The notes beneath the pieces were generated by a model. It was not told the DNA's origin. It was given only the letters and a program-made list of their open reading frames with translations, and did not search any database. A stretch of DNA of 64,000 nt from Verrucomicrobiota bacterium (lineage in GTDB: Bacteria; Verrucomicrobiota; Verrucomicrobiia; JADLBR01). Below, in pieces: positions 25,652-42,167 of this stretch (the stretch's first letter is position 1; every line of letters begins with the position of its first letter). The stretch lies in assembly GCA_029560585.1 (NCBI GenBank), contig JAKQKQ010000106.1, positions 1 to 64,000 of the forward strand. Reading direction: 5' to 3'. The position numbers were made by a program, and so were the translations under genes.

Positions 25652-26670
25652 AGAAGGCGGCATTCGGTTTCGCATTCGTACTGGTGCTGGCGGTGGCTCG
25701 GGGTGCGTCCGCACCGACTCCCGCGCACGGTCCGGCGCCCGCGCAGGTCGCCCGGAAGATCGAGGAAACGGCCCTCAACACGATCACTCTCACCGGAGAG
25801 GCCGAGCGTCGCCTGGGAATCAAACTTGCGAAAGCAGAACGCCGGCCCGTGCCATGCACCCGCCTGTTCTCCGGCGAAGTGATTCCCCCGCTACCCGACC
25901 AATCGGGACTCCACGGCCAATCGGCTTACCCCGTCATCCCCACCTTGCTGCCGGCCGATTTGATCCGGTTGGCGCAGCAGCAGATCGACGCGGACGGACG
26001 CGTGGCCGCGGCAGCGGCCCGCGCAGACGGGGCGCGCCGGGCCCTCGATCGCGCGGAGCGGTTGTTCCAGAGCAAGGCCGGCAGCGAAAGGGCGGTCGAG
26101 GAGGCTCGCACCGCCGCGGAAGTTGCGGACACCGAAACCGAGACCGCGAGGGCCCAGCGCGCGCTGCTGGGGCCGCCGCTGCTCCCGGCGGGGGGGGCGG
26201 GAAAGGTCTGGATTCGCGTGCCGGTCTATGCGGGGGATGTCGGTTCGATCGATCGTGATGCCAGGGGCGCCGTGGCGGAATTTTCGTCACAGCAGGGCCG
26301 GACGCTCGAAGCCCGCCCCGTCGCGAATCCCCCATCCAGCCGGGCACCGGCTCCGACCGTCGATCTTTACTACGAGGTCGAGGATGCGGCCGGATCGCTC
26401 CGGCTCGGCCAGCGCATCGGCGTTCTCATTTCTCTGCGGGCAAGGGAGGGCGCGCTGGCGATTCCCTGGAATGCGGTGGTGCACGACATCTACGGCGGCA
26501 CATGGGTTTACATGAAGGCGGGGCCGCTCGCCTATGCGCGGCGGCGGGTCGAGGTGGCGCGCGTTTCCGGGGCCGACGCCGTGATCGAGGCGGGCCTCGA
26601 CGAGAAGGACGAGGTGGTGACGGACGGCGCGGCCGAACTCTTCGGCACGGAATTTGGCGCCGGCAAATGA
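25648..26670 (+). CDS. RND periplasmic adaptor (membrane fusion protein)
   Basis: A 340-residue exported adaptor with a signal peptide (1-23). The opening strand [19 protein letters not shown] is typical of CzcB/CusB-like adaptors. An Ala/Arg/Glu coiled-coil hairpin follows (about 104-170), then the beta-barrel region with [13 protein letters not shown] and a membrane-proximal LAIPWNAVV strand. It links the lipoprotein duct to the pump. No His/Met-rich metal-binding N-terminus is visible, so the metal is not predictable. Confidence 0.83.
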
Positions 26671-26692
26671 GGCCGCTCGTGGAACCCGCAAC

Positions 26693-29600
26693 ATGATCCG
26701 CTGGCTGGTCGAGAACTCCCTGCACGCGCGGGTGGCGGTGGTCGTCGCCGCCGCGGTGCTGCTGCTGACGGGGGTGCGGCAGGTGCGCCACGCGCCGCTG
26801 GATGTGTTTCCGGAATTCGCGCCGCCGCGCGTCGAGATCCAGACCGAGGCACCGGGCCTTTCGACAGAGGAGGTGGAGAATCTCGTCACGCTGCCCATCG
26901 AAAACGCCATGAGCGGGGTGGCCGGCGTCACGGTGCTGCGCTCGAAGTCCGTCCTCGGGCTTTCGTCGGTCCTGATGCTTTTCGAGGAGGGCAACGACTT
27001 CATGCGGGCGCGGCAATTGGTGCAGGAGCGTCTCGCCGCCGTCGCCCCGCGGCTCCCGACGGTCGCCCGCGCCCCGCACATCCTGCCCCCGCTTTCGTCG
27101 CTCAGCCGCGCGCTGAAGATCGGCGTCTCCTCGACGACGCTCGATCAGATGGAGCTCACGGACCTCATGCTCTGGACCGTGAGGCCGCGCCTGATGGCCG
27201 TGCGCGGCGTGGCCAATGTGGCCATCTGGGGCCAGCGCGACCGCCAGTTGCAGGTGCTCGTCGATCCCGACCGGCTCAACGCCCATGACGTCACCCTCGA
27301 CGCGGTCGTGCGCGCCGCGCGCGACGCGACCGCCATCGGCGCCGGCGGATTTATCGACACCCCCAACCAGCGCATGGCCGTGCGCCATGTCGCCCCCGTC
27401 TTGACCCCGGCGGACCTCGCCCGGACGGTGGTCGATTACCGCGACGGCTTCCCGCTTCGCCTCGGGGATGTCGCCCGCGTCGTGGTGGGGCACCCTCCGC
27501 CCATCGGCGACGCCATCATCAACGACGGCCCGGGACTGCTCCTCATCGTCGAGAAATACCCGTGGGGCAACACGCTCGATGTCACCCGCGAAGTCGAAAG
27601 GGCCCTCGATGCCCTCGGGCCGGGGCTCAATGGAGTCGAGTTCGATTCGACCATCTTCCGGCCGGCGACGTTCATCGAGCTCTCGATCCACAACCTGGGC
27701 CGAACGATGCTGCTCGGATGCCTCATGGTGATCGTGGTGCTGTGCGCCTTCCTTTTCGACTGGCGGGCGGCATTCATCAGCCTGCTGGCGATCCCGCTGT
27801 CGGTGGTGGCCGCGGCCGCGGTGCTGCACTGGCACGGATACACCCTCAACGTCATGGTCCTGGCGGGGCTGGTGATCGCCGTGGGCGAGGTGGTGGATGA
27901 CGCGATCATCGACGTGGAGAACATCCGCCGCCGCCTCCAGCTCAACCGCCGCCTCGGGGCGCCCCGGCGCGCGTTCGATGTCGTGCTCGATGCGTCACTC
28001 GAAGTGCGCAGCGCGGTGGTGTTCGCGAGCCTCGTGGTGGTGATGGTGTTCCTGCCGGTGTTCTTCCTTCCGGGGCTGGCGGGGACGTTTTTTCGGCCGC
28101 TGGCGCTGTCGTACATGGCCGCGATCGGTGCATCCCTGCTCGTGGCGCTGACGGTGACCCCGGCGCTCTGCCTGATGCTGCTGCCGACGGAGCACCCCGT
28201 GCGGCAGGAATCGCCGTTGGCCGCCTGGCTCAAGGCCCGGTACCGCGGGATTCTGCCGTTCATCGTCAGGCGCCCGCGCGCCGCCGTGATGTTCCTCGCG
28301 GCGGCGTTCGCCGCCACCGCCGCCGCCTGGCCACTGCTCGCCGAGCAGTTTCTTCCCGATTTCAAGGAGCGGGACTTCCTGATGCACTGGGTCGAGAAAC
28401 CGGGCACCTCGATCGAGGCGATGAACCGGATCACGGTGCAGGCCAGCCGCGAACTGCGTTCGATCCCCGGAGTGCGCAACCTCGGCTCGCACATCGGCCG
28501 GGCCGAGGTCGCCGACGAGGTGGTCGGCCCGAATTTCACCGAGCTTTGGATCAGCGTCGATCCGTCGGTCGATTACCGCAAGACGCTGGCCAGGATCCAG
28601 GAGGTGGTCGCCGGGTATCCGGGCCTGTACCGCGACGTGCAGACCTATCTCAAGGAGCGGATCAAGGAGGTGCTGACGGGGGCGAGCGCGACGATCGTGG
28701 TGCGGATTTTCGGCCCCGAGCTCGACGTATTGCGCACCAAGGCGCAGGAGGTGGCCGCGGCCATCGCGGGGGTGCCGGGGGTGGCGGACCTCAAGGTCGA
28801 GCCGCAATCGCTGGTGCCGCAGGTCCAGGTGCGGCCGCGGCTTGAGGCGGCCGCCAACCTCGGGCTGGGGCCCGCGCAGGCGAGACAGGCCGCCGTGACG
28901 CTGGTGAAGGGCACCAAGGTGGGCGAGGTGTACGAGACGTCGAGGATCTACGATGTCGCGGTCTGGGGCGAACCGCGGCTGCGCACCGACCTGCACGCGC
29001 TCAGCGCGATCCCGATCGAGACGCCCGCGGGCGCGCCCGTGCCCCTGGGTGCGGTGGCGGATGTGGCGATCGTGCCGACGCCGAATGAGATCAAGCGCGA
29101 GAACGCCTCGCGGCGCATCGACGTCACCTGCAACGTGAGCGCCCGCGACCTGGGCGCCGTGGCGCGCGAGGTCGAGAGGCGCGTCCGGGCGTTGTCGTTT
29201 GATCGCGGCTATCATCCCGAGTTTCTGGGCGAATACGCCGCCCGGCAGGAGTCCCAGCGGCGCCTGCTGGCCCTCACGGGGCTGGCGTTGCTCGGCATCC
29301 TCGTGCTGCTCCACCTCGACTTCCGCTCCTGGCGGCTCACGCTGCTGGTCGCGCTCACGCTGCCCTTTGCGCTGATCGGCGGGATGGCCGCCGCGTTCCT
29401 CGGGGGCGGCGTGCTCTCGCTCGGGTCGCTGGTCGGGTTCGTCACCGTGCTGGGCATCGCGGCGCGCAACGGCATCATGCTCGTAAGCCACTACCGCCAC
29501 ATCCAGGACAAGGAGGGCGAGCCCTTCGGCGAGACGCTGGTGCTGCGCGGCGCCGAGGAACGGCTCTCGCCCATCCTGATGACCGCCTCGTGCGCGGCGC

Positions 29601-29788
29601 TGGCGCTGCTGCCGCTGGTCGTCGCAGGCGATATTCCCGGCCACGAGATCGAATACCCGATGGCCTGGGTGATCCTCGGCGGCCTGGTCACCTCGACGGC
29701 GCTCAATCTCTTCCTCCTGCCCGCGCTTTACCTTCGCTTCGCGAATCCCGGCGAACAGAAAGGGACCGTCCAGCAGCCTGCCTCGTGA
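26693..29788 (+). CDS. Heavy-metal-type RND efflux pump (CzcA/CusA-like)
   Basis: A 1031-residue inner-membrane pump, normal length for the family. After the first membrane segment comes [20 protein letters not shown], the signature start of the heavy-metal RND class. Transmembrane helix 4 carries [14 protein letters not shown] (about 397-410), with paired acidic residues where CzcA has its proton-relay Asp. Two large periplasmic loops and twelve predicted helices are evident. With the two genes before it this forms a complete tripartite exporter. The acidic helix-4 variant differs from classical CzcA, and the substrate could be a divalent cation or Cu/Ag. Confidence 0.9.
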
Positions 29789-29814: not shown

Positions 29815-30966
29815 TCAGAGCCCGTCATTGAAAGCCCGGTCGAGGATGGAGGGCATCAGCGCGGCTAGGTCTGCGGCGCGCGCGGATTGGGCGGAGCGGA
29901 TTTGCGCGATGGCACGAAACGCGGGAAGGAGTCGGCGTTGCCGGGCGATGTCGGGCATTGGGAGTTCAAGGTTCAAGAAACGTTCGGGCCGGACCCGTTC
30001 GCGGCGTGCGCCAGCTCCATGGGTAGCGTCCCGCAGGCGTGACCAGAACCACTCCTTTCGGACAATCGTCGCCAGGTATGCCGGGTCCGCCTCTCCATCT
30101 CGGCATCGGAAGGTGCGATACTCCGGCGACACAAACCACCCGGCCAGTTCTGCTGGGCACACGGCGATGGCGCCTTCCCACCCCTTGACCTGGCTCAGAA
30201 CCAATGCTCCCGCAAAAAGACGATTGAACGTCCGGTACGTGGTTTGAGAGCCAGCGATCGCACCTTTCGCAAATAGACCGCAGCCAAAGCTCTTTACTCC
30301 AACTTGCGGGTACTCCGAGTCGAAGTCGATGGACTGTGCTTCCTCGTGGAGTTCCAAGAGCTGGTGGATTGGAATGATGCGTCCCGCTGCCGCAGTCTCG
30401 TGTAGAGCCACTTCCAAGCTTTCAGAATCCCTTTCGTTCGCGGCCTGCGCAGCGGTGATGCGGTCGATGGCGGCGGCGACGGCATCGAGCTTGGCGACAA
30501 GGCGGCGCTGTTCGGCGAGGGGTGGTAGGGGGATTTCCAGATTGAGGAAGAAGTCCTCTTTGAACCGGTTTCGCGTCAGTGCCGTGCTTCCGCTGCAATC
30601 TTGAGCGACACGTCGAAGAGTGGAGGGCAGGCGAAACCAATAAGTGAGAAAACGGAGATCGATTGCATCATTGTTGGTTTGGAAGACAGGGAACTCGCTG
30701 GACACGTAGCAGTCGGTCAAATCGGGCGAGACCACGCCGAATGCGCCTCGCCATGCGAACAGGCGGCTGTAAATGAAATCTCCATCTTCAACACGGTTTA
30801 GAGATGATGCCGAGGTTTGATCGCCAGTGACCGTTTCACGAAAAAACGGTCCGGCACCGTCAAGGCGAACGCCAAGAAGGCGATATTCCTTGTCCACTGC
30901 GGGGGTCTCCCACCGCTGGATCAAATGCAGGACATCACGGAGACGCACTGAAGGCCGAGCAGTCAT
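29815..30966 (-). CDS. hsdS: Type I restriction-modification specificity subunit
   Basis: A 383-residue specificity subunit with two target-recognition halves. Each half ends in a conserved helix: PLPPLAEQRRLVAKLDAVAAA in the first and MPDIARQRRLLPAF in the second. The protein directs the HsdM/HsdR complex to a split DNA site. Its start overlaps the hsdM stop as ATGA (30963-30966), giving the usual coupled M-S order. Base composition is somewhat lower in GC than the flanking efflux genes, which fits an acquired module. Confidence 0.9.
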   Translation of the reverse strand: MTARPSVRLRDVLHLIQRWETPAVDKEYRLLGVRLDGAGPFFRETVTGDQTSASSLNRVEDGDFIYSRLFAWRGAFGVVSPDLTDCYVSSEFPVFQTNNDAIDLRFLTYWFRLPSTLRRVAQDCSGSTALTRNRFKEDFFLNLEIPLPPLAEQRRLVAKLDAVAAAIDRITAAQAANERDSESLEVALHETAAAGRIIPIHQLLELHEEAQSIDFDSEYPQVGVKSFGCGLFAKGAIAGSQTTYRTFNRLFAGALVLSQVKGWEGAIAVCPAELAGWFVSPEYRTFRCRDGEADPAYLATIVRKEWFWSRLRDATHGAGARRERVRPERFLNLELPMPDIARQRRLLPAFRAIAQIRSAQSARAADLAALMPSILDRAFNDGL

Positions 30967-32552
30967 TCTTGAGACAATTCGATCGTCTGCTGAATCTCGT
31001 GCAGCGCCTCCTGAATCTCCTTCTCCCTTGCGCGTATCCGGGCGAGGAGTTCTTGGGGCGGGAGGTGTTCGATGTCATTGGGGGCATTGGGGTTCTTGCG
31101 GTCGAGGTTGCAGGAGAGGAGTCGGCCGGAATCGTCGTAGCGGAGGACGTCGTCGACGGGGACCTTCCAGGCCTGCGTATTTTCGGCGCGTTTCTTGGCG
31201 CGCATCCAGGCGATGGCGGGGGCGAACTCCTCGAATCGGAGGGGCTGGGTTTTCGAGTACTTCTTGCGGCCTTCGGGGCGCGGGAGTTCGTAGTACCAGA
31301 TCTCACGGGTGGGACCGGAGCGGTCGAAGAAGAGGATGTTGGTGGGGATGTCAGTGTAGGGGGCGAAGACCCCGTCGGGGAGACGCACGATGGTGTGGAG
31401 ATTGAACTCCTTGAGGAGCTGCTCCTTGATGCGGGCGCAGACGCCGTCGCCAAAGAGCGTGCCGTGCGGCACGACGACCGCGGCGCGGGCGGGACCATGG
31501 CCGGGCTTGGACGCCTTCCGCAGGCGCCGCATGATCAATTGCAGGAACAACAGCGCGGTCTCGGAGGTCCGCATGTCCTCGGGGAAATTGCCCTGGATGC
31601 CCTTTTCTTCCTCGCCGCCGAACGGCGGGTTCGTGAGGATGACATCGACGCGGTCCTTCTCGCCGACATCTGACAACTTGAAGCGCAGGGAGTTGCCGGC
31701 ATCGATCCGCGGGGCGTCGAGCCCGTGGAGGAGCAGATTCATCTGGCAGAGGAGGTACGGGAGGGATTTCGGCTCGCAGCCGAAAAGCGACTTGCCTTGC
31801 AGGACCCTGCGGTCCTCGACGGTCCTCACCTGTTTCGCAAGGTGGCTGAACGCCTCGACGAGGAACCCGCCGGTGCCGCTTGCGGGATCGAGGACCGCCT
31901 CCCCGAGGCGGGGATCGGTGACCTCGACCATGAAGCGGACGACGGGGCGCGGCGTGTAGAACTCGCCGGAGTCGCCGGCGGCATCGCGCATCTCGCGCAG
32001 CATCGTCTCATAGAGCGCGCCGAGCGTATGGAGTTCCTCATGGGAGGTGAAGTGAATCGCGGCGACCCTGTTGATGACGTCCCGCAGCAGGTAGCCGCTG
32101 CGCATGCGGTTGTCCACGCCGCGGAACACGGTGGCGATGACATCCCGCCGGTCGTCGCCGTTGGCGCTGGTGAGGCCGCGCAGGTACGCGAACAGCCCGG
32201 GACCGCGCTTGCCGTCGGGCCGGCGGCATTCGTCCTGGTTGATGAAGGCGAGCAGGTCGTCGCCCGTGATGCCACGCGGATCGGCAGCCCAGTCGCGCCA
32301 GCGATACGGCGGCTCGATGGCGGGGCGGAATTTCGCCCTGGCGAGCTTGGCCTCCTGCTCCCGCATCTCTTCGAGGTCGCCGAGGAATTTGAGGAACATG
32401 ATCCAGGTGAGCATCGGCAGCCGGTCGAGGTCGCCGTTGAGGCCCTTGTCCTTGCGCATGATCTGCCGCGCGGATTTGACCAGCGCCCCGAGGGACTGGG
32501 CGGTGGTCAGCGGAACGGCGGGCGGGCGGGCGGTTCTCTTCTTTGAGGGCAT
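30963..32552 (-). CDS. hsdM: Type I restriction-modification methyltransferase subunit
   Basis: A 529-residue N6-adenine methyltransferase. The AdoMet motif is D222-PASGTGG229 and the catalytic motif N308-P-P-F311. The N-terminal HsdM helical domain (about 15-160, with PMLTWIMFLKFLGD) and the ALYETMLREMRDAAGDSGEFYTPRPVV linker are as expected. It methylates the host site and forms the core of the restriction complex. It starts three bases after the hsdR stop, so the operon reads hsdR-hsdM-hsdS. Confidence 0.94.
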   Translation of the reverse strand: MPSKKRTARPPAVPLTTAQSLGALVKSARQIMRKDKGLNGDLDRLPMLTWIMFLKFLGDLEEMREQEAKLARAKFRPAIEPPYRWRDWAADPRGITGDDLLAFINQDECRRPDGKRGPGLFAYLRGLTSANGDDRRDVIATVFRGVDNRMRSGYLLRDVINRVAAIHFTSHEELHTLGALYETMLREMRDAAGDSGEFYTPRPVVRFMVEVTDPRLGEAVLDPASGTGGFLVEAFSHLAKQVRTVEDRRVLQGKSLFGCEPKSLPYLLCQMNLLLHGLDAPRIDAGNSLRFKLSDVGEKDRVDVILTNPPFGGEEEKGIQGNFPEDMRTSETALLFLQLIMRRLRKASKPGHGPARAAVVVPHGTLFGDGVCARIKEQLLKEFNLHTIVRLPDGVFAPYTDIPTNILFFDRSGPTREIWYYELPRPEGRKKYSKTQPLRFEEFAPAIAWMRAKKRAENTQAWKVPVDDVLRYDDSGRLLSCNLDRKNPNAPNDIEHLPPQELLARIRAREKEIQEALHEIQQTIELSQE

Positions 32553-32555
32553 CGT

Positions 32556-34934
32556 TCAGGCAGCGTAGAGGTATCGCTGGAGATTCTCGACGGCATTCTG
32601 GAGATTATCCGGGCCGCCGAAAATGCGGATGATGTCCCCGACGGATCCGCGATCCGAGATCGGCGGCACCTTGAGCACGTCGGGGATCGTGAACTGGGCC
32701 GTGCCGTGCTCGGCATACTTCTCGATCAGCTCATCAAGGATGGCGCGCGCCTCGCCGGAATAGCGATCAAAGAAAGTTCTTTTCTCCTCGCGCAGGCGCT
32801 GGGCGCGCTCCCGGCGGCTTCGGATCGGGGCATTGAAGGCCAGATGGCAGAGCAGGTCGAACGGGTCGGCTTCGGGCTGCCGGGCGGCCCCCATGAGTTC
32901 CTCGAAGCTGATGCCGCGCTCCTCAAGAAGCCGGATCACGTCGGAGCGGCCCTCCGGCGACATCCAGCGCTTGCGGAGCGCGGGAGCGGAGATGAAAAGC
33001 GTGCGCACCTTCTCGGCGGCGTAATCGGTGAAGCGGACAACCCGGAGCTGCGTGCCGTCGGCGTCCAGCTCGTACACCATGTGGGCGGCGATCTCGACCT
33101 GGCCGCCGTCGAAGTAGTATTTCCGGCGCTGTGTTTCCGGCGGTTCGATGACGGTGCCGGCGCCGGGCGCTGAGGGCTCGATGTCGATGGGCTCGGGCTG
33201 AACCGCGGTGAGTTCCGCGGGGTCGATGCGCAGCTTGGTCTTGTATTCGTCGATTTCCTCTTCGGTGACGAGCGCGGGATCGCCGTCGAAATCGGGATCG
33301 GCGAAGTTCCGCGTGGCCGTGCCGGTGTAGTCGATGATGTTGAACCAGAGCTTGTCGTAGTCGTCGCGGACTCGGGTTCCCCGGCCGATGATCTGCTTGA
33401 AGTCGGTCATGGATCCCACCACCCGCGCGAGCACGATGTTGCGGCAGGTGGGAATGTCCACGCCGGTGGTGAGCAGTTGGGAGGTGGTCACGATGACCGG
33501 CGTCCGACCTTCCACGTCCTGGAAGCGTCCGAGGTGGCCCCGGCCGATGTCGCCTTCGTCCGCCGTGATGCGGCACACGTAGTCCGGGTGCCCGCGCACG
33601 AGGTCGCTGTTGAGATCGATCAGCGCGCGGCGCATTTCGGATGCGTGTTCCTGGTCGACGCAAAAGACGATGGTTTTTGCGAACCGATCCGTGCGCCCGA
33701 GGAACGCGTTCAGGTGGGCGGCGATGGCCTCGGTGCGGGCGCGCAAGGCCACGGCATGTTCAAAGTCGGGCGTCTGATACTCCTCGTCGGGGATCTGGCG
33801 GCCGTAGCGGTCGATGTCGCCGGGGCTGGGGCGCCAGCCGGCGGCATCCCACTCGGTGATGACGCGATGGACGCGGTAGGGGGCTAGGAAGCCGTCCTCG
33901 ATTCCCTGGCGGAGGCTGTACTGGTAGATCGGGTTGCCGAAGTAGAGGTAGGTGTCGCGATTGTCCTCGCGCAGGGGCGTGGCGGTCATGCCGAGCTGGC
34001 AGGCCGGTTGGAAATACTCGAGGATCTCGCGCCAGTTGCTGCGGTCGCGCGCGCTGCCCCGGTGGCACTCGTCGACGACGATGAGGTCGAAGAAATCGCT
34101 GGGGTATTCCTTGTAGAGGCCCGGGCGGCGTTCGTCCTGAGCGATTGCCTGGTACGTGGCGAAGTAGATGTCCCGGCTCTTGACGGCTTCGCCGTTTTCG
34201 ATCCTGTGGCGTGCATCGCCGAAGGGGGCGAACATCTTGTCCTTGGGGTCATCGACGAGGATGTTGCGGTCGGCGAGATAGAGGATTTTCGGGCGGCGGT
34301 GCGCGCCCGCCCGGTTCCAGCGGGCATTCCAGAGCTTCCAGCAGATCTGGAACGCCACGGCGGTCTTGCCGGTCCCGGTGGCCATGGTGATCAGGATGCG
34401 GGGTCGCCCGCGCAGAATCGCCTCGACGGCCCGGTTGATCGCGATCTGCTGGTAGTAGCGTTCGCCTTTGTCCACCGTCGTGTTGATGGGGGTGAGCAGG
34501 CGGTCCGCAACCGTGTCGTCGGTCAGTGAACTGCCGACGCGGTACCGGGTCCAGAGGGTAGAGGGTGAGGGGTACGCGGTGACTATCGATTCCTTGCCGG
34601 TGAAATAATCGATCTCGATGATCTCTTTGCCGTTGGTGGCGTAGGCAAATTTCAGACCAAGGAGCTCCGCGTAATCCCTGGCCTGCTGGATGCCGTCTGC
34701 CGCCTTGCGGTAGCTCGCCTTGGCCTCGACCACCGCGAGGGGGAAATCCCGCCGGTAACGCAGGAGGTAGTCAACCCGCTTGGGCGGCTTGCGGACGAAT
34801 CCCTTGCCGAGGGGCACGATGCGACCATCGGTGATCGTTCTCTGTTCGGCGATCGAGTGCGGCTCACTGTCCCACCCCGCCGCCTGCAACTTCGGCACCA
34901 CGAAGCGCCGGCACGTGTCGGCCTCGGTCGGCAT
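32556..34934 (-). CDS. hsdR: Type I restriction enzyme, motor and nuclease subunit
   Basis: A 792-residue restriction subunit. The N-terminal PD-(D/E)XK nuclease is marked by Asp55 (KRVDYLL) and E70-A-K72. The motor has Walker A A185-T-G-T-G-K-T191 and the DEAD-type box D288-E-C-H291 followed by RGS. The length and EcoEI-like layout, with a helicase C-domain near 400-560 and a C-terminal helical domain, are typical. It translocates and cuts unmodified DNA. This is the first gene of the minus-strand operon, and a promoter should lie in 34935-34987 or further upstream. Confidence 0.94.
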   Translation of the reverse strand: MPTEADTCRRFVVPKLQAAGWDSEPHSIAEQRTITDGRIVPLGKGFVRKPPKRVDYLLRYRRDFPLAVVEAKASYRKAADGIQQARDYAELLGLKFAYATNGKEIIEIDYFTGKESIVTAYPSPSTLWTRYRVGSSLTDDTVADRLLTPINTTVDKGERYYQQIAINRAVEAILRGRPRILITMATGTGKTAVAFQICWKLWNARWNRAGAHRRPKILYLADRNILVDDPKDKMFAPFGDARHRIENGEAVKSRDIYFATYQAIAQDERRPGLYKEYPSDFFDLIVVDECHRGSARDRSNWREILEYFQPACQLGMTATPLREDNRDTYLYFGNPIYQYSLRQGIEDGFLAPYRVHRVITEWDAAGWRPSPGDIDRYGRQIPDEEYQTPDFEHAVALRARTEAIAAHLNAFLGRTDRFAKTIVFCVDQEHASEMRRALIDLNSDLVRGHPDYVCRITADEGDIGRGHLGRFQDVEGRTPVIVTTSQLLTTGVDIPTCRNIVLARVVGSMTDFKQIIGRGTRVRDDYDKLWFNIIDYTGTATRNFADPDFDGDPALVTEEEIDEYKTKLRIDPAELTAVQPEPIDIEPSAPGAGTVIEPPETQRRKYYFDGGQVEIAAHMVYELDADGTQLRVVRFTDYAAEKVRTLFISAPALRKRWMSPEGRSDVIRLLEERGISFEELMGAARQPEADPFDLLCHLAFNAPIRSRRERAQRLREEKRTFFDRYSGEARAILDELIEKYAEHGTAQFTIPDVLKVPPISDRGSVGDIIRIFGGPDNLQNAVENLQRYLYAA

Positions 34935-34987
34935 GCGGAGTCACGCTATAGATTCGAGGCCGCATGAGCCAGCGAATACCGTGCAGG

Positions 34988-36232
34988 CTATGGCCTGACG
35001 ATGCTAAACCACCCCCGCGCCTGCTCCTCGGTGACCAGTTCCCGGTAGTGCTTGAAGATGATCGCGGGGGAGTTGCCCGCCTCCAGCGCGACCTGGTCGG
35101 CGCTTTTCACTAGCGCAATCCGGTAGCTGATGAAGGAGTGGCGCAGGACGTTGTGGGGCCACCGGATGCCCGCGCGCTTGGCCGTGGGCCTGATCCGGCG
35201 GTCCACCGGTGGGTCAGTGACGACGGGGCCGCGCGAGACGTAGGGCCGCAGCCACGCGGCGAGGTTGTCGCTCACCGGCACAATGCGCCGGGACGCCGTC
35301 TTGGCCTGCGTGGCACGGATCTCGATGGTGCGGCGCTCCAAATCGATGGCGCCCCAGTCCAGCCTGCATACCTCGGCGCAGCGCAGCCCCGCGAAACCCG
35401 CGATCGCCAGGTACGGGATGATCTCCGGCTCTGCCGCGGCCAGCACCGCACGGAATTGGTCCGGGGTGAAGATTTCCACATCCTTGTCCGGCAACTTGAC
35501 CTTGCCCAGCGCCTGGGCCTCGGTGCGCTCGTTCTTGGGGAGGTAGGACCGGCTCCGGGCGAAGGAGAAGAGCGTCTTGACCGAGGTCAGCAGCCCGTTG
35601 CGCCGGCACGGCCCCACCTTCTGCGAGCGGAGCCAGTCATCGATCTGGTCGGAGCGCACCTCGAGGATCGGGCCGGTGAACGCCGCCGCGAACCGGCCCA
35701 GGTCGCAGCGCAGCGATTGCTGGTAGCAGAGGCTGGCGCCGTCCTGCGCCTTGGCCCGGATGCACTCCTCCACCGCCTCGGCCACGCCCATGACGCGCGC
35801 GACGCCACGGCCCCGCCGGGCGTGTTCCTCGACGGTCGCAAGGAGCGGCGCGCCATCCAGCAGCTTGCGGGCGGCGACGTACTCCTGCACCGCCGCCACC
35901 AGCGGGATGCCCAGTGGTTCCAGCAGACCCCTGACGGCCACGTACTCCGTGCGCGCCGATGGCCCGAGGTCGAGATTGTGGGTCTGGCCGTTCTGAATCA
36001 GCATGGCCGCCCGGCGCGCCTCGAGCTTGGCCACCGCGAGATTGCCGAAGGTCTTCCGGACCCTTCGGCCCCCGTGATAGTACGCGACCGTGAATCGGGT
36101 GCGTCCGTGGACCTGCCCGCTGTAGATCGGCACTTCCGCCGACCCTGCCCGCACCCGGATGATCTTGCCCTTGTCCGTTGTGACCCGACTCCCTGTCATA
36201 CCTATGTCATGGGGCGTCAAAGATTCGGTCAT
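34988..36232 (-). CDS. Tyrosine recombinase (integrase)
   Basis: A 414-residue site-specific recombinase. Arg284 (GLRCAEV), Lys311 (QAKTAS), His360 and Arg364 (PHNVLRH) and Tyr396 (KHYRELV) make the active site. The second His/Trp position reads Asn387 (GNSPA), a substitution I recall as common in Verrucomicrobiota integrases of the GNSP-HYRELV type. It lies directly upstream of hsdR on the same strand and is probably what moved the restriction module. An in-frame ATG 11 codons later is an alternative start. No tRNA or obvious att repeat is beside it. Confidence 0.9.
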   Translation of the reverse strand: MTESLTPHDIGMTGSRVTTDKGKIIRVRAGSAEVPIYSGQVHGRTRFTVAYYHGGRRVRKTFGNLAVAKLEARRAAMLIQNGQTHNLDLGPSARTEYVAVRGLLEPLGIPLVAAVQEYVAARKLLDGAPLLATVEEHARRGRGVARVMGVAEAVEECIRAKAQDGASLCYQQSLRCDLGRFAAAFTGPILEVRSDQIDDWLRSQKVGPCRRNGLLTSVKTLFSFARSRSYLPKNERTEAQALGKVKLPDKDVEIFTPDQFRAVLAAAEPEIIPYLAIAGFAGLRCAEVCRLDWGAIDLERRTIEIRATQAKTASRRIVPVSDNLAAWLRPYVSRGPVVTDPPVDRRIRPTAKRAGIRWPHNVLRHSFISYRIALVKSADQVALEAGNSPAIIFKHYRELVTEEQARGWFSIVRP

Positions 36233-36425: not shown

Positions 36426-38855
36426 CTATTCTCGAATCGGCCCGTCGCGATTTGGCGGGCAGGTTCCCCGCCACCAAACGGGTAAGAGGTAGACCGCCAC
36501 CAGCAGCGTCAACGTGATTCCCAGGGCGCAGGTCCTGCCCAAACTAGCCATGCCTCTGTTGGTCGAAAACGCGAGCGATGCAAATCCGGCGACGGTCGTG
36601 GCCCCCGCGAGCAACAGCGCGCGACCGATGGAACGCCTCACCGCGAGCCTATCACCCCGATAGTCGCGCAGAGCGAGTTGCATGTGGATGCTGAAATCCA
36701 CGCCCATTCCCAGAAGGAGGGGGAGCGACATCACGTTCATCAGATTCCACTTCCAGCCAAGAGCGGCCATGAGCGCGCCCAGCATCAACGCACTGAACGC
36801 AAGGGTCGCGAAACTGAGCAGAACGTCTCGCATCGAGCGAAACGCCAACCACAGGGACCCAACCACCACGGCAAGAATCGGCAGCAGCACGAATGGCAAC
36901 TCGCGCAGCACCTGATCGAAGATCGTGCCCCCGAGGAGACCCCAGCCCGTCACGATGGCCCCCGCCGCGTCAAGTTCCCGCGCCCAATCCGCGCCGACCA
37001 CTCCCGAGGCCACCGCATTTGTCGCGGGCTGGATCGCCCCAAGGGCGATAACCGTTCCCTCGCCTCGCGCCGCGACCTTGTCCAAGAACCACCGACTGGA
37101 ACCGTTGCTCGGCCAGATGGCGCTCTCACCGGAGGGCGCCGACGCCCAGCACCTCAGCACTTCCTCCGTCATTCGCAGCGCCTCGGCGGTAAAGCCCGCG
37201 GCGAGCGCCGCATCATGGAGTTCCTTGCTCCTCTGCACAAGCGACGCCAGTGCGGCCCGATTGGCACTCTGGTTTTCCGGATCTGGCCACAGTGCGGTCG
37301 GCAACGTGAATCCGGCAATCTCTCGCCGAGACACGGCCTCCGATAGAATCCCGTTCGCGCGCGATAGCCGGAGAGCGACTTCTGATTCGTTACGTCCGGG
37401 GAGGAGGATTATCAGCGAATCCCGGCCCTGACCCAACAAGCCTTGAACTCGCGCCAGCGTTTCCTGGGCCTGGCTGTTCCGGGGCTCCAGCGCACCGGAC
37501 GAACGGTCAAAGCATAAACCCCGGGACCATAAAACCGCGACCGCGACGCACGCCAGCAGAACGGTCATTCCCCAGCTGAACCGGGCGGGCATCACGCAGA
37601 TCGGTTGAAACAACAACAGCCTCTCCCCTCGCCCCTCATGGCGGCTGCCATCGGTCCCGCGACGAAGCCTCAACAGGGGCGGAAGATACCCGAACAGCAT
37701 GACAACCGCAGCCAACAGAATGCCAAGGGCCACGAGTGTCCCGAGTTGCCCCAACCCCGGTAAAACGCTGAGATTGAGCGCAAAAAACGCCCCCGCCGTG
37801 GTGATCGCAGACCAAAAGATTCCGGGCCTCACCCGCCTCCGCAGGGCCGGCGCATCAAGGTCTGGATGTGACCTCGACTCCTGATAGATCACGATCCCGA
37901 AATCCTCGGCCAGTCCAAGCAATATGGCCGCAAAACCCATGCTCATGACGTTGATAGTGCCCAAGCACAGTCCACCCAAAGCGAGCGTCCCCGCCAAGAT
38001 CATGAGCATCACAAGCAACAGCCACACCAGCGGGCGCAATCGCCGGTGCGTCAGCCAAAACAGGATCGCGATAACGGCCAGGGTCCCGCTCGAGGAACCC
38101 GCCATGTCGTTCTCCATCCCAGAAGAGATCTCGTCCACGAACGCGGGTCGGCCGGTGTACCCGACCCTAATCCCCGCCGGAATGACCCCGCTGTCCCGAC
38201 CCGTGTCTACTGCCCGCCTCAGATCGGCCATCCACGCGCGACAGGCCCGATAATCCCCCAGCTCCGGATGGGCTCTCACGATGACCAGGCGCAACATCCC
38301 ATCGGCGGACACAAATGAGTCATGGCTCGCCCCGATCGCGGGACTAGCGCCCGCCAGCGATTCCGGAAGACGCAAGAATCCATAAGGATCATAACCGCCC
38401 ATCGCCATGTCGGCGGGAGAAAAAGATGTGGCCAGCCGTTCCCGGGTTTCTTCCAGCGTGTTGGTAAGATTCGCCGACGCCAGCCGCCCCACCATCTCGG
38501 CAACGACCGGAGGTGGTTGATTCAGCCAAAGGAACGCGATCAACTCGGCAGCCTCATCCGGTTTCTCCACCCATGTCGGCTGCCACGCCGCCCAAGAGAC
38601 CAGGTTTGACTCCGCCCCGAGCAACCGCGCGACCGCACGCGCGCCAGATTCGGCCGTTTCGGCGGTCGGGGCCTCAATGGTGATGATCACCTCACGGGGA
38701 TCGGTGAAATGGCGCTGATAGAGCCCAAGCCCCCGCACCACCCCGAGCCGACTCGGTAGAAGATGCAGGATCTCGGTGTCGAATCGGAGGCGCACCACCC
38801 CGGCAATCAGCCCGGCCGCAAACACTACCCAGAGCAGCCACGCGCACCGTTTCAT
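36426..38855 (-). CDS. MMPL/HpnN-like RND lipid transporter
   Basis: An 809-residue two-fold RND protein. The start MKRCAWLLW is chosen because it begins the first membrane helix; an upstream ATG at 38894 adds a non-hydrophobic leader and overlaps the preceding gene. The repeated membrane blocks carry GLAEDFGIVIYQ in the first half and GMGVDFSIHMQ plus AGATTVAGFASLAFS-NRGMASLG in the second. These are the marks of the MMPL branch and especially HpnN, which moves hopanoids between membranes. The gene starts 11 bases after the stop of a cobalamin-type radical SAM gene, so one operon is likely. No hopanoid cyclase is in the window, so the cargo is inferred to be some lipid. Confidence 0.86.
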   Translation of the reverse strand: MKRCAWLLWVVFAAGLIAGVVRLRFDTEILHLLPSRLGVVRGLGLYQRHFTDPREVIITIEAPTAETAESGARAVARLLGAESNLVSWAAWQPTWVEKPDEAAELIAFLWLNQPPPVVAEMVGRLASANLTNTLEETRERLATSFSPADMAMGGYDPYGFLRLPESLAGASPAIGASHDSFVSADGMLRLVIVRAHPELGDYRACRAWMADLRRAVDTGRDSGVIPAGIRVGYTGRPAFVDEISSGMENDMAGSSSGTLAVIAILFWLTHRRLRPLVWLLLVMLMILAGTLALGGLCLGTINVMSMGFAAILLGLAEDFGIVIYQESRSHPDLDAPALRRRVRPGIFWSAITTAGAFFALNLSVLPGLGQLGTLVALGILLAAVVMLFGYLPPLLRLRRGTDGSRHEGRGERLLLFQPICVMPARFSWGMTVLLACVAVAVLWSRGLCFDRSSGALEPRNSQAQETLARVQGLLGQGRDSLIILLPGRNESEVALRLSRANGILSEAVSRREIAGFTLPTALWPDPENQSANRAALASLVQRSKELHDAALAAGFTAEALRMTEEVLRCWASAPSGESAIWPSNGSSRWFLDKVAARGEGTVIALGAIQPATNAVASGVVGADWARELDAAGAIVTGWGLLGGTIFDQVLRELPFVLLPILAVVVGSLWLAFRSMRDVLLSFATLAFSALMLGALMAALGWKWNLMNVMSLPLLLGMGVDFSIHMQLALRDYRGDRLAVRRSIGRALLLAGATTVAGFASLAFSTNRGMASLGRTCALGITLTLLVAVYLLPVWWRGTCPPNRDGPIRE

Positions 38856-38866
38856 CGGGGCGAGGT

Positions 38867-40366
38867 TTAGCCGCCCAGCTCCCGCTGTAAACATCTCCCG
38901 GTATAGTGCCGCAAGTGTGGCGGGAAGTCCTTGTGCAGGCGGCGGAAGGAGCGGACGTAGAAGAATTCTGCATACAGCACGCGCAATAGATCACGCGCCC
39001 GCCTCGGAATGGCGCGCACACGCATCGGGTTCCGCCGCGCCGCGGCGGCCACGGTCAACGAGTACTGGCGTGAAAACTCCCGCAACGAGAGTTTCGTGGG
39101 CAACAGCGGGTGCATGCAGTCGTGGACCAAGGACGGCTGCTCAACCCAGATCCTCGAGCGCATGGCATCGTAGTCGGCTGTACCGGGCGAGGGCGTGCAG
39201 ACGGTGAAGCTGAATTCCGCGGGCGGCATACGGGCCACGTAGTCGCGGAGAGCTTCGAAATCGGAGACGCCCCATTCAGGGAGGATCATGAAGGCCACGT
39301 GGACGGCTATGTTCAGACCTCGAAGGACTTCAAGGGCCTGCTCGTTCTGGGCAAGCGTGGAGCCCTTGCGGATCCTGCGCAACATGTCGTCAGTGGCGAA
39401 TTCGAAACCCAGAAATGTCACGTCGAGCCCCAACGCGCGCCAGCGGCGAAACAATTCCGGATGGCGGTTGACTGTGGTCGTCCGGGCCCAGGCAAAGTAG
39501 TGCTTCTTCACACCCATCCGTTCGAGCGCGTCTGCCAGCGCGTCAGCAAACTCCGGATCGATGAAGTTCTCGTCGTCACAGAAGTAGACGTGATCGGTAG
39601 CGAGGTTGGCAATTTCTCTGGCCACCTCTTCGGGGTCACGCGCGTAATGCCGTCCGCCGAATAATTTCGGAACGATGCAGAATGAACAAGTCATACGACA
39701 ACCGAACGAACTGCGGACCATCGATACCGGGGGAAACAGTGGGTCGGAATAGCGCGATTCCTCGCCGGTCCACACGCAGTAGTAGCGGCGGTGGTCCCAC
39801 AGATCTCGCCTTGGCACAGGCATTTTTTCGACCCCAGGAAAGGCGGGCCAAGATTCGGGATCGATCTGCCGAAAGGACGGCCCGGGCCGCCGCGTCCCGG
39901 GCAGGTCGGGCAGAGGTCTGTGGTTGGCAAGCGCGTCCACGATCGCGCGGAATGTCCCACACCCCTCGCCGCGCACGACCATGTCAATCTCGGGCATGTC
40001 GAAGTCGTCCGGAGCGACCGTGGCATGGTGCCCGCCGATGACCAGGCATGTGTCGGGCAACGTCCGCCGGATCAGCCGGGCGAGGTCCTTCATCACGACC
40101 GCCACATGTGTGTAGCCAGTCAAACCAACGACATCGGGTCGGAACCTGATCAGGGTCTGTTCGAGCGCCCGGCGCGCGGACGATTCAAAGCGCAGGTCAA
40201 GCACGCGGACTTCGTGCTCAGGACCGACTGCGGCGGCGAGGTAACCAAGCTCGATCGGTTCCAACAACTGGAACCTCTGAAGCGCAATCACGGTGCGCAA
40301 CGAGGCCTTCGGCTTCACCAGCAGGATGCGCAAACGCCGCGGCGTGATCGTTGTTGGGCTGGTCAT
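38867..40366 (-). CDS. Cobalamin-type radical SAM protein, BchE/HpnR-like
   Basis: A 499-residue protein. The start MTSPTTITPRRLRILLVKP is preferred since it opens the first strand of a B12-binding-like Rossmann domain (about 11-150; VIGGHHATVAP at 109-119). The 4Fe-4S cluster ligands are C223, C227 and C230 (C-R-M-T-C-S-F-C). The FLGFEFATDDMLRRIRKGS segment is typical of this barrel. Members methylate or cyclise unreactive carbons, for example in hopanoids and bacteriochlorophyll. With the lipid transporter 11 bases downstream, lipid modification is the leading idea. A long upstream extension of the frame (to 40570) is unlikely to be translated. Confidence 0.84.
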   Translation of the reverse strand: MTSPTTITPRRLRILLVKPKASLRTVIALQRFQLLEPIELGYLAAAVGPEHEVRVLDLRFESSARRALEQTLIRFRPDVVGLTGYTHVAVVMKDLARLIRRTLPDTCLVIGGHHATVAPDDFDMPEIDMVVRGEGCGTFRAIVDALANHRPLPDLPGTRRPGPSFRQIDPESWPAFPGVEKMPVPRRDLWDHRRYYCVWTGEESRYSDPLFPPVSMVRSSFGCRMTCSFCIVPKLFGGRHYARDPEEVAREIANLATDHVYFCDDENFIDPEFADALADALERMGVKKHYFAWARTTTVNRHPELFRRWRALGLDVTFLGFEFATDDMLRRIRKGSTLAQNEQALEVLRGLNIAVHVAFMILPEWGVSDFEALRDYVARMPPAEFSFTVCTPSPGTADYDAMRSRIWVEQPSLVHDCMHPLLPTKLSLREFSRQYSLTVAAAARRNPMRVRAIPRRARDLLRVLYAEFFYVRSFRRLHKDFPPHLRHYTGRCLQRELGG

Positions 40367-40862
40367 GACAACGGCGCAAAGCCACCGCTCCTCCCCTGCC
40401 ACGCCCCAATGGCCGAAAACCGACCCCGCGCAGATCCCCCCCAAAATCGACTCCCGGCGGGCCAAAATCGAGCGCTGAACTCTCCCGCCATCGAAACAGC
40501 GTAACAAGCGCTTCACCCAAGGTCGAGGCCAAATACGTGCGCTATCAGGGGGACCAACACCGTTCTTCAACGGGCTGCTAACCCGGATATTTCACAGCCG
40601 TCAGGCCGTGAAATACGCAGGCTAACCGTTCCCCCAGGAAATCCCATTCCCATCGCCACACTCCCAGAAACATCCCCGCCTTATCCCACCGGACTCGTTC
40701 GACTTGACACTCGCCACGCCCTATTCGCACCATCCGCCGAAACCACTCTCATTCCCGAACCCGGATCGCCGCACGACTCGTCCCTTCTTGGCGAAACATC
40801 GCTTAGCCACCCGCCCAGAGCAACGCCACCAGATCTAATCCACATGGCACCCGGCTAGCAAA
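40367..40862. other. Intergenic region between divergent radical SAM genes
   Basis: These 496 bases separate two genes that face away from each other, so both promoters should lie here. The hairpin at 40588-40615 is its only strong structure. A perfect TTGACA sits at 40704-40709 but has no -10 hexamer at the right distance. No operator, small gene or terminator is otherwise apparent. Confidence 0.5.
40588..40615. repeat. Near-perfect hairpin, possible REP-like element
   Basis: TATTTCAC and GTGAAATA pair around an inner GCC/GGC with a GTCA loop; only one A-C mismatch interrupts 12 positions. It sits in a longer stretch with CTAACCCGG on one side and GGCTAACC on the other. It looks like a mobile intergenic palindrome or a regulatory hairpin. 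No T-run follows on either strand. Confidence 0.5.
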
Positions 40863-42167
40863 ATGAAAATCAGATTCATATTCCCGAAATGGCAAAAGCT
40901 CTTAGATCAAGACGAGGATCTCAGTCGGACGCTCGCCGGCTATGAAATCGGCAATTTCAGGATGCCCGGCCTTGCAGTTCCTTCGGTCGCCGCAGCCACA
41001 CCTCACGACTGCCAAATAGAACTCGTCGACGAACACACCCAGTCGCTCGATTTCGACAATCTGGATTTCGATCTCGCAGCAATAAGTTTTTTCACACCTC
41101 AAGCCTCACGCGCATACGAGATTGCCATCCAAATTCGCAAGAGAGGAAAGAAAGTGGTCTTTGGAGGCCTGCATCCCACCCTCCTCCCTTTTGAAGCCAT
41201 GAAACACGCCGATGCGGTCTGCGCGGGAATGGCCGAACCGTGCTGGACGGACATCATCACCGACTTCAAACACAATCGCCTCAAACCACTATACGACACG
41301 CGATCCGCAGTTCCATATTCGTCGCAATACCACACCCCTGTTAGGAGTCTCTGGCAAAAGAAGGGATACGTCCAGATCGGCGTGGTTCAAATCTCTCGCG
41401 GCTGCACCTACCGATGCCCCTATTGCGTGGTTCCCCCGTATGCCGGCGACGACATCGTCTACAGGCCTCTCGACGATGTCGTCGCCGAAATCGCCGCCCT
41501 CGATTACCCCTCTTTCTATGTGGCCGACGAGAATTTGATCTTTTCATCAGCACGCGACTCGCAATACGCATCCGCGCTGCTGCGGCAAATCGCGCATCTG
41601 AAGAAACGTCTGTTCATCGCCTCATTCCCTTTTCTAATCAACCGCGCCGCAGATAACATAATGGAACTCCTTGCCAATGCGGGCTGCACACAGATATATC
41701 TCGTCACCGGCCTCGATTCCGAGAGCGAAAAGATGTATGCTGGCGACACAACCGCCGTCGACCAAGCTGTCAAGAAAATCAGGAGCTTTGGAATTCCTGT
41801 AATGACAAGCTTTTGCGTGGGCTCCGATCTATTCGAAGAGAAACATTTTAGCTGGCTTATCGACTATTCCGATAGCCTTGAGACGGATCTGGCTGAATTC
41901 TTTATCTCAACGCCATATCCGGGGACGAGCGTGCGCGCGAGGCTCGCAGGCGAACGGAGACTTCTTGATGTTCCATGGAGCAAATATAACGGAGCGAACG
42001 TCACGTACCGGCCAGCGAGGATTTCCGAACGAGAGCTGGCACATGGTTTTAGAAACCTGTGGCTTAAGTATTACGGTAGGCTTAGCAGATTCGAGGCATA
42101 CAAACGGATCACTCGCTGTTTTGGTGCATCGGTATTGAAAACCTTTGAGCGCAAAGCAACAGGTTAG
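40863..42167 (+). CDS. Second cobalamin-type radical SAM protein
   Basis: A 434-residue protein. The B12-binding-like domain is in the first 150 residues (FGGLHPTLLPF at 100-110), and the cluster ligands are C181, C185 and C188 (C-T-Y-R-C-P-Y-C). VADENLIFS and YLVTGLDSESEKMYAGD fit the barrel. It is only distantly like the first radical SAM gene, which it faces away from. Its codons are visibly more AT-rich than any neighbour, suggesting a separate origin. The reaction is unknown; together with the lipid transporter it may make a two-step modification pathway. Confidence 0.84.
   Translation: MKIRFIFPKWQKLLDQDEDLSRTLAGYEIGNFRMPGLAVPSVAAATPHDCQIELVDEHTQSLDFDNLDFDLAAISFFTPQASRAYEIAIQIRKRGKKVVFGGLHPTLLPFEAMKHADAVCAGMAEPCWTDIITDFKHNRLKPLYDTRSAVPYSSQYHTPVRSLWQKKGYVQIGVVQISRGCTYRCPYCVVPPYAGDDIVYRPLDDVVAEIAALDYPSFYVADENLIFSSARDSQYASALLRQIAHLKKRLFIASFPFLINRAADNIMELLANAGCTQIYLVTGLDSESEKMYAGDTTAVDQAVKKIRSFGIPVMTSFCVGSDLFEEKHFSWLIDYSDSLETDLAEFFISTPYPGTSVRARLAGERRLLDVPWSKYNGANVTYRPARISERELAHGFRNLWLKYYGRLSRFEAYKRITRCFGASVLKTFERKATG

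Follow-up and report, generated by a model that had tools for sequence, protein, structure and literature searches.

In a window of 64,000 nucleotides from a Verrucomicrobiota draft genome (contig C147:1-64000, in an assembly of 7.06 Mb and 336 contigs that is 95.7% complete), we analysed three adjacent genes encoding a predicted MMPL/RND-type exporter, hereafter MMPL, and two radical SAM enzymes, hereafter rSAM1 and rSAM2 (Table 1). We propose that the trio probably consists of parts for export and tailoring that have become detached from a dispersed lipid pathway of the aryl-polyene/ladderane-like type II fatty acid synthase/polyketide synthase (FAS/PKS) kind. As judged by homology, the family of each gene occurs in clusters of this kind, albeit for rSAM1 at 8 of 19 loci only. 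Moreover, a fusion protein of the relatives is split in this genome, with its exporter half encoded in the window and its acyltransferase half on another contig, C43.

The arrangement of the trio, as given in a preliminary description of this DNA, was confirmed by translation and Pfam searches, which returned three intact open reading frames (ORFs). MMPL and rSAM1 share a strand, and rSAM2 is transcribed away from them (plus versus minus strand). The longest ORF for MMPL spans 36426-38894 on the minus strand; both its relatives and the position of the first membrane helix favour an inner ATG at 38855, which therefore leaves a gap of 11 bases to the rSAM1 stop at 38867. Likewise, the listed ORF of rSAM1 covers 38867-40570, and since its relatives align only from around residue 78, the gene is better set at the shorter limits of Table 1 (499 residues). 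The CxxxCxxC motif is invariant across the rSAM1 family and across the rSAM2 family. Together with this motif, rSAM1 has the B12-binding (2.1e-21) and Radical_SAM (5.3e-18) domains expected of a cobalamin-dependent radical SAM enzyme, whereas rSAM2 has a Radical_SAM domain (5.7e-13) and a B12-binding match of 28 bits, under the cut-off of 32.1.

Table 1. Features of the window discussed in the text.
Feature	Position	Strand	Remarks
MMPL/RND lipid exporter (predicted)	36426..38855	-	PF03176 2e-23; corresponds to the N-terminal ~800 residues of the relatives' MMPL-LpxL fusion
rSAM1, B12-binding radical SAM, likely tailoring enzyme	38867..40366	-	Lies upstream of MMPL in a two-gene operon
rSAM2, radical SAM with weak B12-binding domain	40863..42167	+	Family conserved next to ketosynthases
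Tyrosine recombinase	34988..36232	-	PF00589 1.7e-10; adjoins the MMPL 3' end
Type I restriction-modification genes hsdS, hsdM, hsdR (by sequence) and tyrosine recombinase	29815-36232		Recombinase directly beside MMPL

The first line of evidence for our proposal comes from MMPL. In a tree of 29 MMPL proteins, in which some branches are long, the window protein groups with MMPLs of aryl-polyene-like clusters (support 97/99), and an HpnN-like protein from its own genome falls apart from it. Gene names at neighbouring loci, here and below, derive from BLAST searches of a fixed reference set with mechanically called ORFs. Among the nearest relatives examined, eight have MMPL in a fusion with an LpxL-type acyltransferase; LolA and FabA come next and then, in most of them, the remaining cluster genes, in the order [MMPL-LpxL]-LolA-FabA-AMPligase-GT2-KS-CLF-KR-ACP (KS, ketosynthase; CLF, chain-length factor; KR, ketoreductase; ACP, acyl carrier protein). 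Both domains of the fusion, PF03176 (MMPL) and PF03279 (Lip_A_acyltrans), were confirmed by Pfam in all three proteins tested. When the two halves were searched among the examined stretches of the genome under study, the MMPL half matched the window gene with 43-46% identity over ~800 residues (six relatives aligned), and the LpxL half matched the gene on C43 with 42-57% identity over ~300 residues.

The distribution of MMPL points in the same direction. A window-type MMPL is present in 19 of 387 other genomes of the phylum, and all 17 other phylum genomes that have a C43-type KS (at least 338 bits) carry it (Fisher p 9e-28, kinship ignored). In a second draw, made among nearer relatives, it was found in 15 of 15 genomes with a KS of at least 390 bits, and in 23 of 31 when the threshold was set at 290 bits (p 8e-16, kinship ignored). 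A genome of the same genus (G001) has neither of the two. In many genomes MMPL and KS lie far apart, for instance in G351, where a single contig has them at 0.54 and 3.83 Mb.

The cluster on C43 encodes LpxL, LolA, AMP-ligase, a radical SAM enzyme, KS, CLF and ACP, and has no MMPL. Thus, KS, CLF, ACP, acyl-ACP ligase, LolA-like carrier and acyltransferase, by which we recognise an aryl-polyene-like cluster, stand together on C43, and none of them was found in the window beside the trio. With respect to ladderane-type FAS II, the C43 radical SAM enzyme passes the NCBI lipid-biosynthesis model rSAM_ladder_B12 (TIGR04072) with 388 bits against a cut-off of 360, whereas rSAM1 and rSAM2 of the window are far under it, at 54 and 37 bits, and a ladderane product is not supported. 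The whole genome of 7.06 Mb holds five KS domains. C43, C155 (a second contig with a lipid cluster) and other stretches of the window's contig share a tetranucleotide signature (0.68-0.86), with no sign of a foreign contig. Since the chain-building genes are located on C43 and C155, the trio is not a self-contained system; the preliminary description had seen in it the strongest candidate for an undescribed one.

The two radical SAM families lead to the same kind of cluster. First, for rSAM1 we found ten close relatives (53-77% identity), spread over Verrucomicrobiota, Acidobacteria and purple sulphur bacteria; a further nine, less close, are from the phylum. The closest, at 77%, belongs to an aryl-polyene-like cluster of Akkermansiaceae (L060), the only locus with a window-type MMPL plus rSAM1, where it is accompanied by MMPL, LolA, ketoreductase, ACP, a second B12 radical SAM enzyme, acyltransferases, GT2, AMP-ligase, ketosynthase and a FabA-type dehydratase. 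After the MMPL of this cluster a beta-lactamase-type domain continues in the same frame (L060:3-2768). Both Thiocapsa loci of rSAM1 include LpxL, LolA, MMPL, two ketosynthases, ketoreductase and GT2. Overall, ketosynthases occur in the examined flank of 8 of the 19 rSAM1 loci, so that the linkage of rSAM1 to KS clusters is partial. Second, a search with a three-sequence rSAM2 alignment gave 23 strong matches (E <=1e-110) in the 387 other phylum genomes, and 17 of the 18 phylum loci examined have ketosynthases beside rSAM2, in the conserved order AMP-ligase, (LolA), MMPL, KS, rSAM2, second radical SAM, GT2, LpxL, ACP, KS, CLF. Third, a paralogue of rSAM2 (33% identity) is encoded on C155 of the same genome as a single ORF of 1251 residues, in which a B12-type radical SAM domain is followed by a ketosynthase and then by a CLF-like domain (L086:5723-9478; C155:69722 onwards). 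This fusion offers a single-protein handle on the role of cobalamin radical SAM enzymes in ladderane-like lipid clusters. The C155 cluster also has an unusual member: a protein resembling GcvT (glycine cleavage T) is encoded between ACP and a 4HBT thioesterase (L086:3959-5065).

On the structural side, rSAM1 has no sequence relative in the PDB at 1e-10, and the nearest folds retrieved, namely, AprD4, MgmA, TokK, OxsB and CysS, are too divergent to fix its substrate. The entry titles of the TokK and CysS structures indicate that both were determined with pantetheinylated substrates, so that carrier-bound chains would fit as substrates of the window enzymes.

Whether the three genes belong together at all has to be weighed against another view, namely, that rSAM1 and MMPL form one unit and that rSAM2 was separately acquired and is an unrelated neighbour. 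Besides its divergent orientation, rSAM2 has a GC content of 52%, as opposed to 62-63%, and MMPL and rSAM1 themselves differ in their nearest relatives, as shown by their identities to L060 (35% and 77%, respectively). The preliminary description had suggested looking for conserved co-occurrence of the trio and had taken independent placement in relatives as an argument against a common module. In fact, no genome among the 387 has a window-type MMPL plus rSAM1 or rSAM2, so that the exact trio is independently placed in relatives. However, the rSAM2 family is present in seven of the nine phylum genomes that have rSAM1 (p 3e-8, kinship ignored), in four of them on one contig within ~16 kb of it, and all three families independently indicate the same kind of pathway. 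Each of the genes is nevertheless strongly linked to one and the same kind of cluster. We therefore regard chance adjacency of rSAM2 as a serious but somewhat unlikely explanation, and retain the proposal of detached parts of one dispersed pathway.

A second explanation is a hopanoid module, as the nearest named families would suggest. The best-scoring of these are HpnN for MMPL and HpnR for rSAM1, with scores between a quarter and a third of the curated cut-offs: MMPL reaches 196 bits against HpnN (TIGR03480, cut-off 751.85) and rSAM1 213 bits against HpnR (TIGR04367, cut-off 650). BchE (TIGR02026, cut-off 481 bits; 121 bits for rSAM1 and 37 for rSAM2) was rejected on score, as was HpnJ. The preliminary description had noted the lack of a squalene-hopene cyclase, which is correct for the window's contig; the genome does encode one, on contig C272 (TIGR01507, 699 bits; cut-off 431), unlinked to the window genes. 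It is thus conceivable that hopanoids made by this cyclase are methylated by rSAM1 and moved by MMPL. rSAM1 shares its domain order and CxxxCxxC motif with HpnR and BchE, and MMPL is, like HpnN, of the MMPL/RND family. The nearest named families and the nearest solved structure to MMPL, that of HpnN (PDB chain 6wu0), are in line with such a module acting in trans, and in G017 a hopene cyclase with 61% identity to that on C272 lies ~1.3 kb from an ACP-KR-CLF-KS cluster (C55; L247:3453-5741).

However, a better HpnN match (550 bits) is encoded on contig C156, and a cyclase over the cut-off was found in only 1 of the 19 other genomes with rSAM1 and in 3 of the 19 other genomes with a window-type MMPL; among the rSAM1/MMPL genomes tested, neither the two Thiocapsa nor Imhoffiella has one. 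The absence of the cyclase from 18 of 19 genomes speaks against C-3 methylation of hopanoids as the predicted role of rSAM1. Given the low scores, the distribution of the cyclase and the place of MMPL in the tree, apart from the HpnN-like protein of its own genome, the window proteins do not belong to the HpnN and HpnR families, and we consider a hopanoid module very unlikely. The initial idea of lipid tailoring coupled to export thus holds in kind, but neither for the lipid, since type II FAS/PKS genes rather than hopanoid genes are tracked, nor for the trio as a unit. HpnN-like and HpnR-like annotations should accordingly not be read as evidence of hopanoids or their methylated forms, compounds that serve as biomarkers.

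Several observations weigh against the proposal of a dispersed FAS/PKS lipid pathway, in addition to the scattered trio and the cyclase of G017. First, the ketoreductase of C43 is reduced to a remnant of 57 residues between CLF and ACP (L087:18286-18456), where relatives have a full gene, which may reflect erosion or an assembly error, and the C43 cluster has neither FabA nor GT2; the pathway may therefore be decaying. Second, 11 of the 19 rSAM1 loci, including most of the Acidobacterial ones, have no KS in the examined flank, several of them being short contigs. Third, the tetranucleotide profile of the trio (0.32, against a window mean of 0.59 with a standard deviation of 0.10) places it among the least host-like stretches of the window, and the trio may thus be acquired. 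Fourth, the draft state of the genome, with its many contigs, counts on the same side.

These observations bear on a further alternative, in which the trio would be non-functional relics and the recombinase/restriction island next to it would have disrupted the original aryl-polyene-like cluster. At its 3' end, MMPL faces the tyrosine recombinase and the type I restriction genes, and this same side bears the fused acyltransferase in relatives; a rearrangement or acquisition at the 3' side of MMPL is plausible, and from its position the recombinase is a possible boundary of it. Together with the reductase remnant, this would agree with decay. Yet the three genes are full-length ORFs with intact cysteine motifs in both radical SAM genes, and MMPL and KS are commonly placed apart in relatives whose genes are intact. 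We thus take non-functional relics to be unlikely, and the dispersed pathway remains our preferred explanation.

If the dispersed pathway does operate, its working can be outlined after the published aryl-polyene scheme, from which we take the order of steps; the chemistry of the radical SAM enzymes is suggested by their domains and nearest folds. AMP-ligase would load a starter acid onto a dedicated ACP, and KS and CLF, with a reductase and a dehydratase, would extend it to a (poly)unsaturated chain. Starter, chain and carrier would be provided by the C43 genes, as putative direct partners, while reductase and dehydratase might come from the C155 cluster or from general fatty acid synthesis. 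rSAM1 and rSAM2 may then alter the chain or the head group; cobalamin-dependent C-methylation is the likeliest reaction, with radical cyclisation or rearrangement as alternatives. Finally, the LpxL-type acyltransferase of C43 would join the chain to a lipid anchor, and the window MMPL would carry the resulting lipid over the inner membrane to a LolA-like carrier bound for the outer membrane. Whereas the gene identities, their linkage and co-occurrence and the division of the fusion over two contigs are observed, the chemistry, the substrates, the product and the direction of transport in this outline are inferred.

The general kind of pathway is already known. In the aryl-polyene cluster of E. 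coli, the LolA-like ApeL and the RND transporter ApeM were proposed to bring the lipid to the outer membrane, and this cluster, apeA-R, shares with those of the relatives the type II KS/CLF, KR, dehydratase, ACP, acyl-ACP ligase, acyltransferases, LolA-like carrier and RND exporter (PMC8253772). Unlike it, the genome under study and some relatives have B12 radical SAM enzymes where E. coli has an ordinary methyltransferase, ApeB. It also differs from the relatives in that their exporter is fused to the LpxL acyltransferase, and from the genome under study in that exporter and radical SAM genes sit away from the cluster here. For ladderanes, a B12 radical SAM enzyme together with FAS II genes was proposed (PMC2649909), and ladderane-like clusters, of product not known, have been reported in Verrucomicrobiota (PMC9902471). 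Our literature search found no paper joining radical SAM enzymes with aryl polyenes and MMPL, or cobalamin radical SAM enzymes with polyenes and ACP. The features that appear to be new are the fusion split in two, the exporter without linkage to the cluster and the set of radical SAM enzymes.

Through gene fusion and co-occurrence, an exporter and two radical SAM enzymes, all three of them orphans, are tied to a definite kind of lipid pathway. Because such pathways can be scattered in Verrucomicrobiota, genome mining based on clusters would overlook the genes for tailoring and export. It is tempting to go further, and we do so only tentatively, since we hold it to be rather doubtful: Verrucomicrobiota might make and export polyene lipids of a class not yet described. 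Two or three cobalamin radical SAM enzymes, of which one is fused to KS/CLF, would act in succession on the ACP-bound chains, and exporter and acyltransferase would form a fusion that is able to split, its parts moving to other places in the genome.

As for the surroundings of the trio, the recombinase/restriction island showed no flanking repeats, in that no 11-12-mers were common to the tested ends in a simple check. Beyond the restriction genes, an ORF of 1044 residues at 26654-29788 resembles RND pumps of the AcrB/CusA type.

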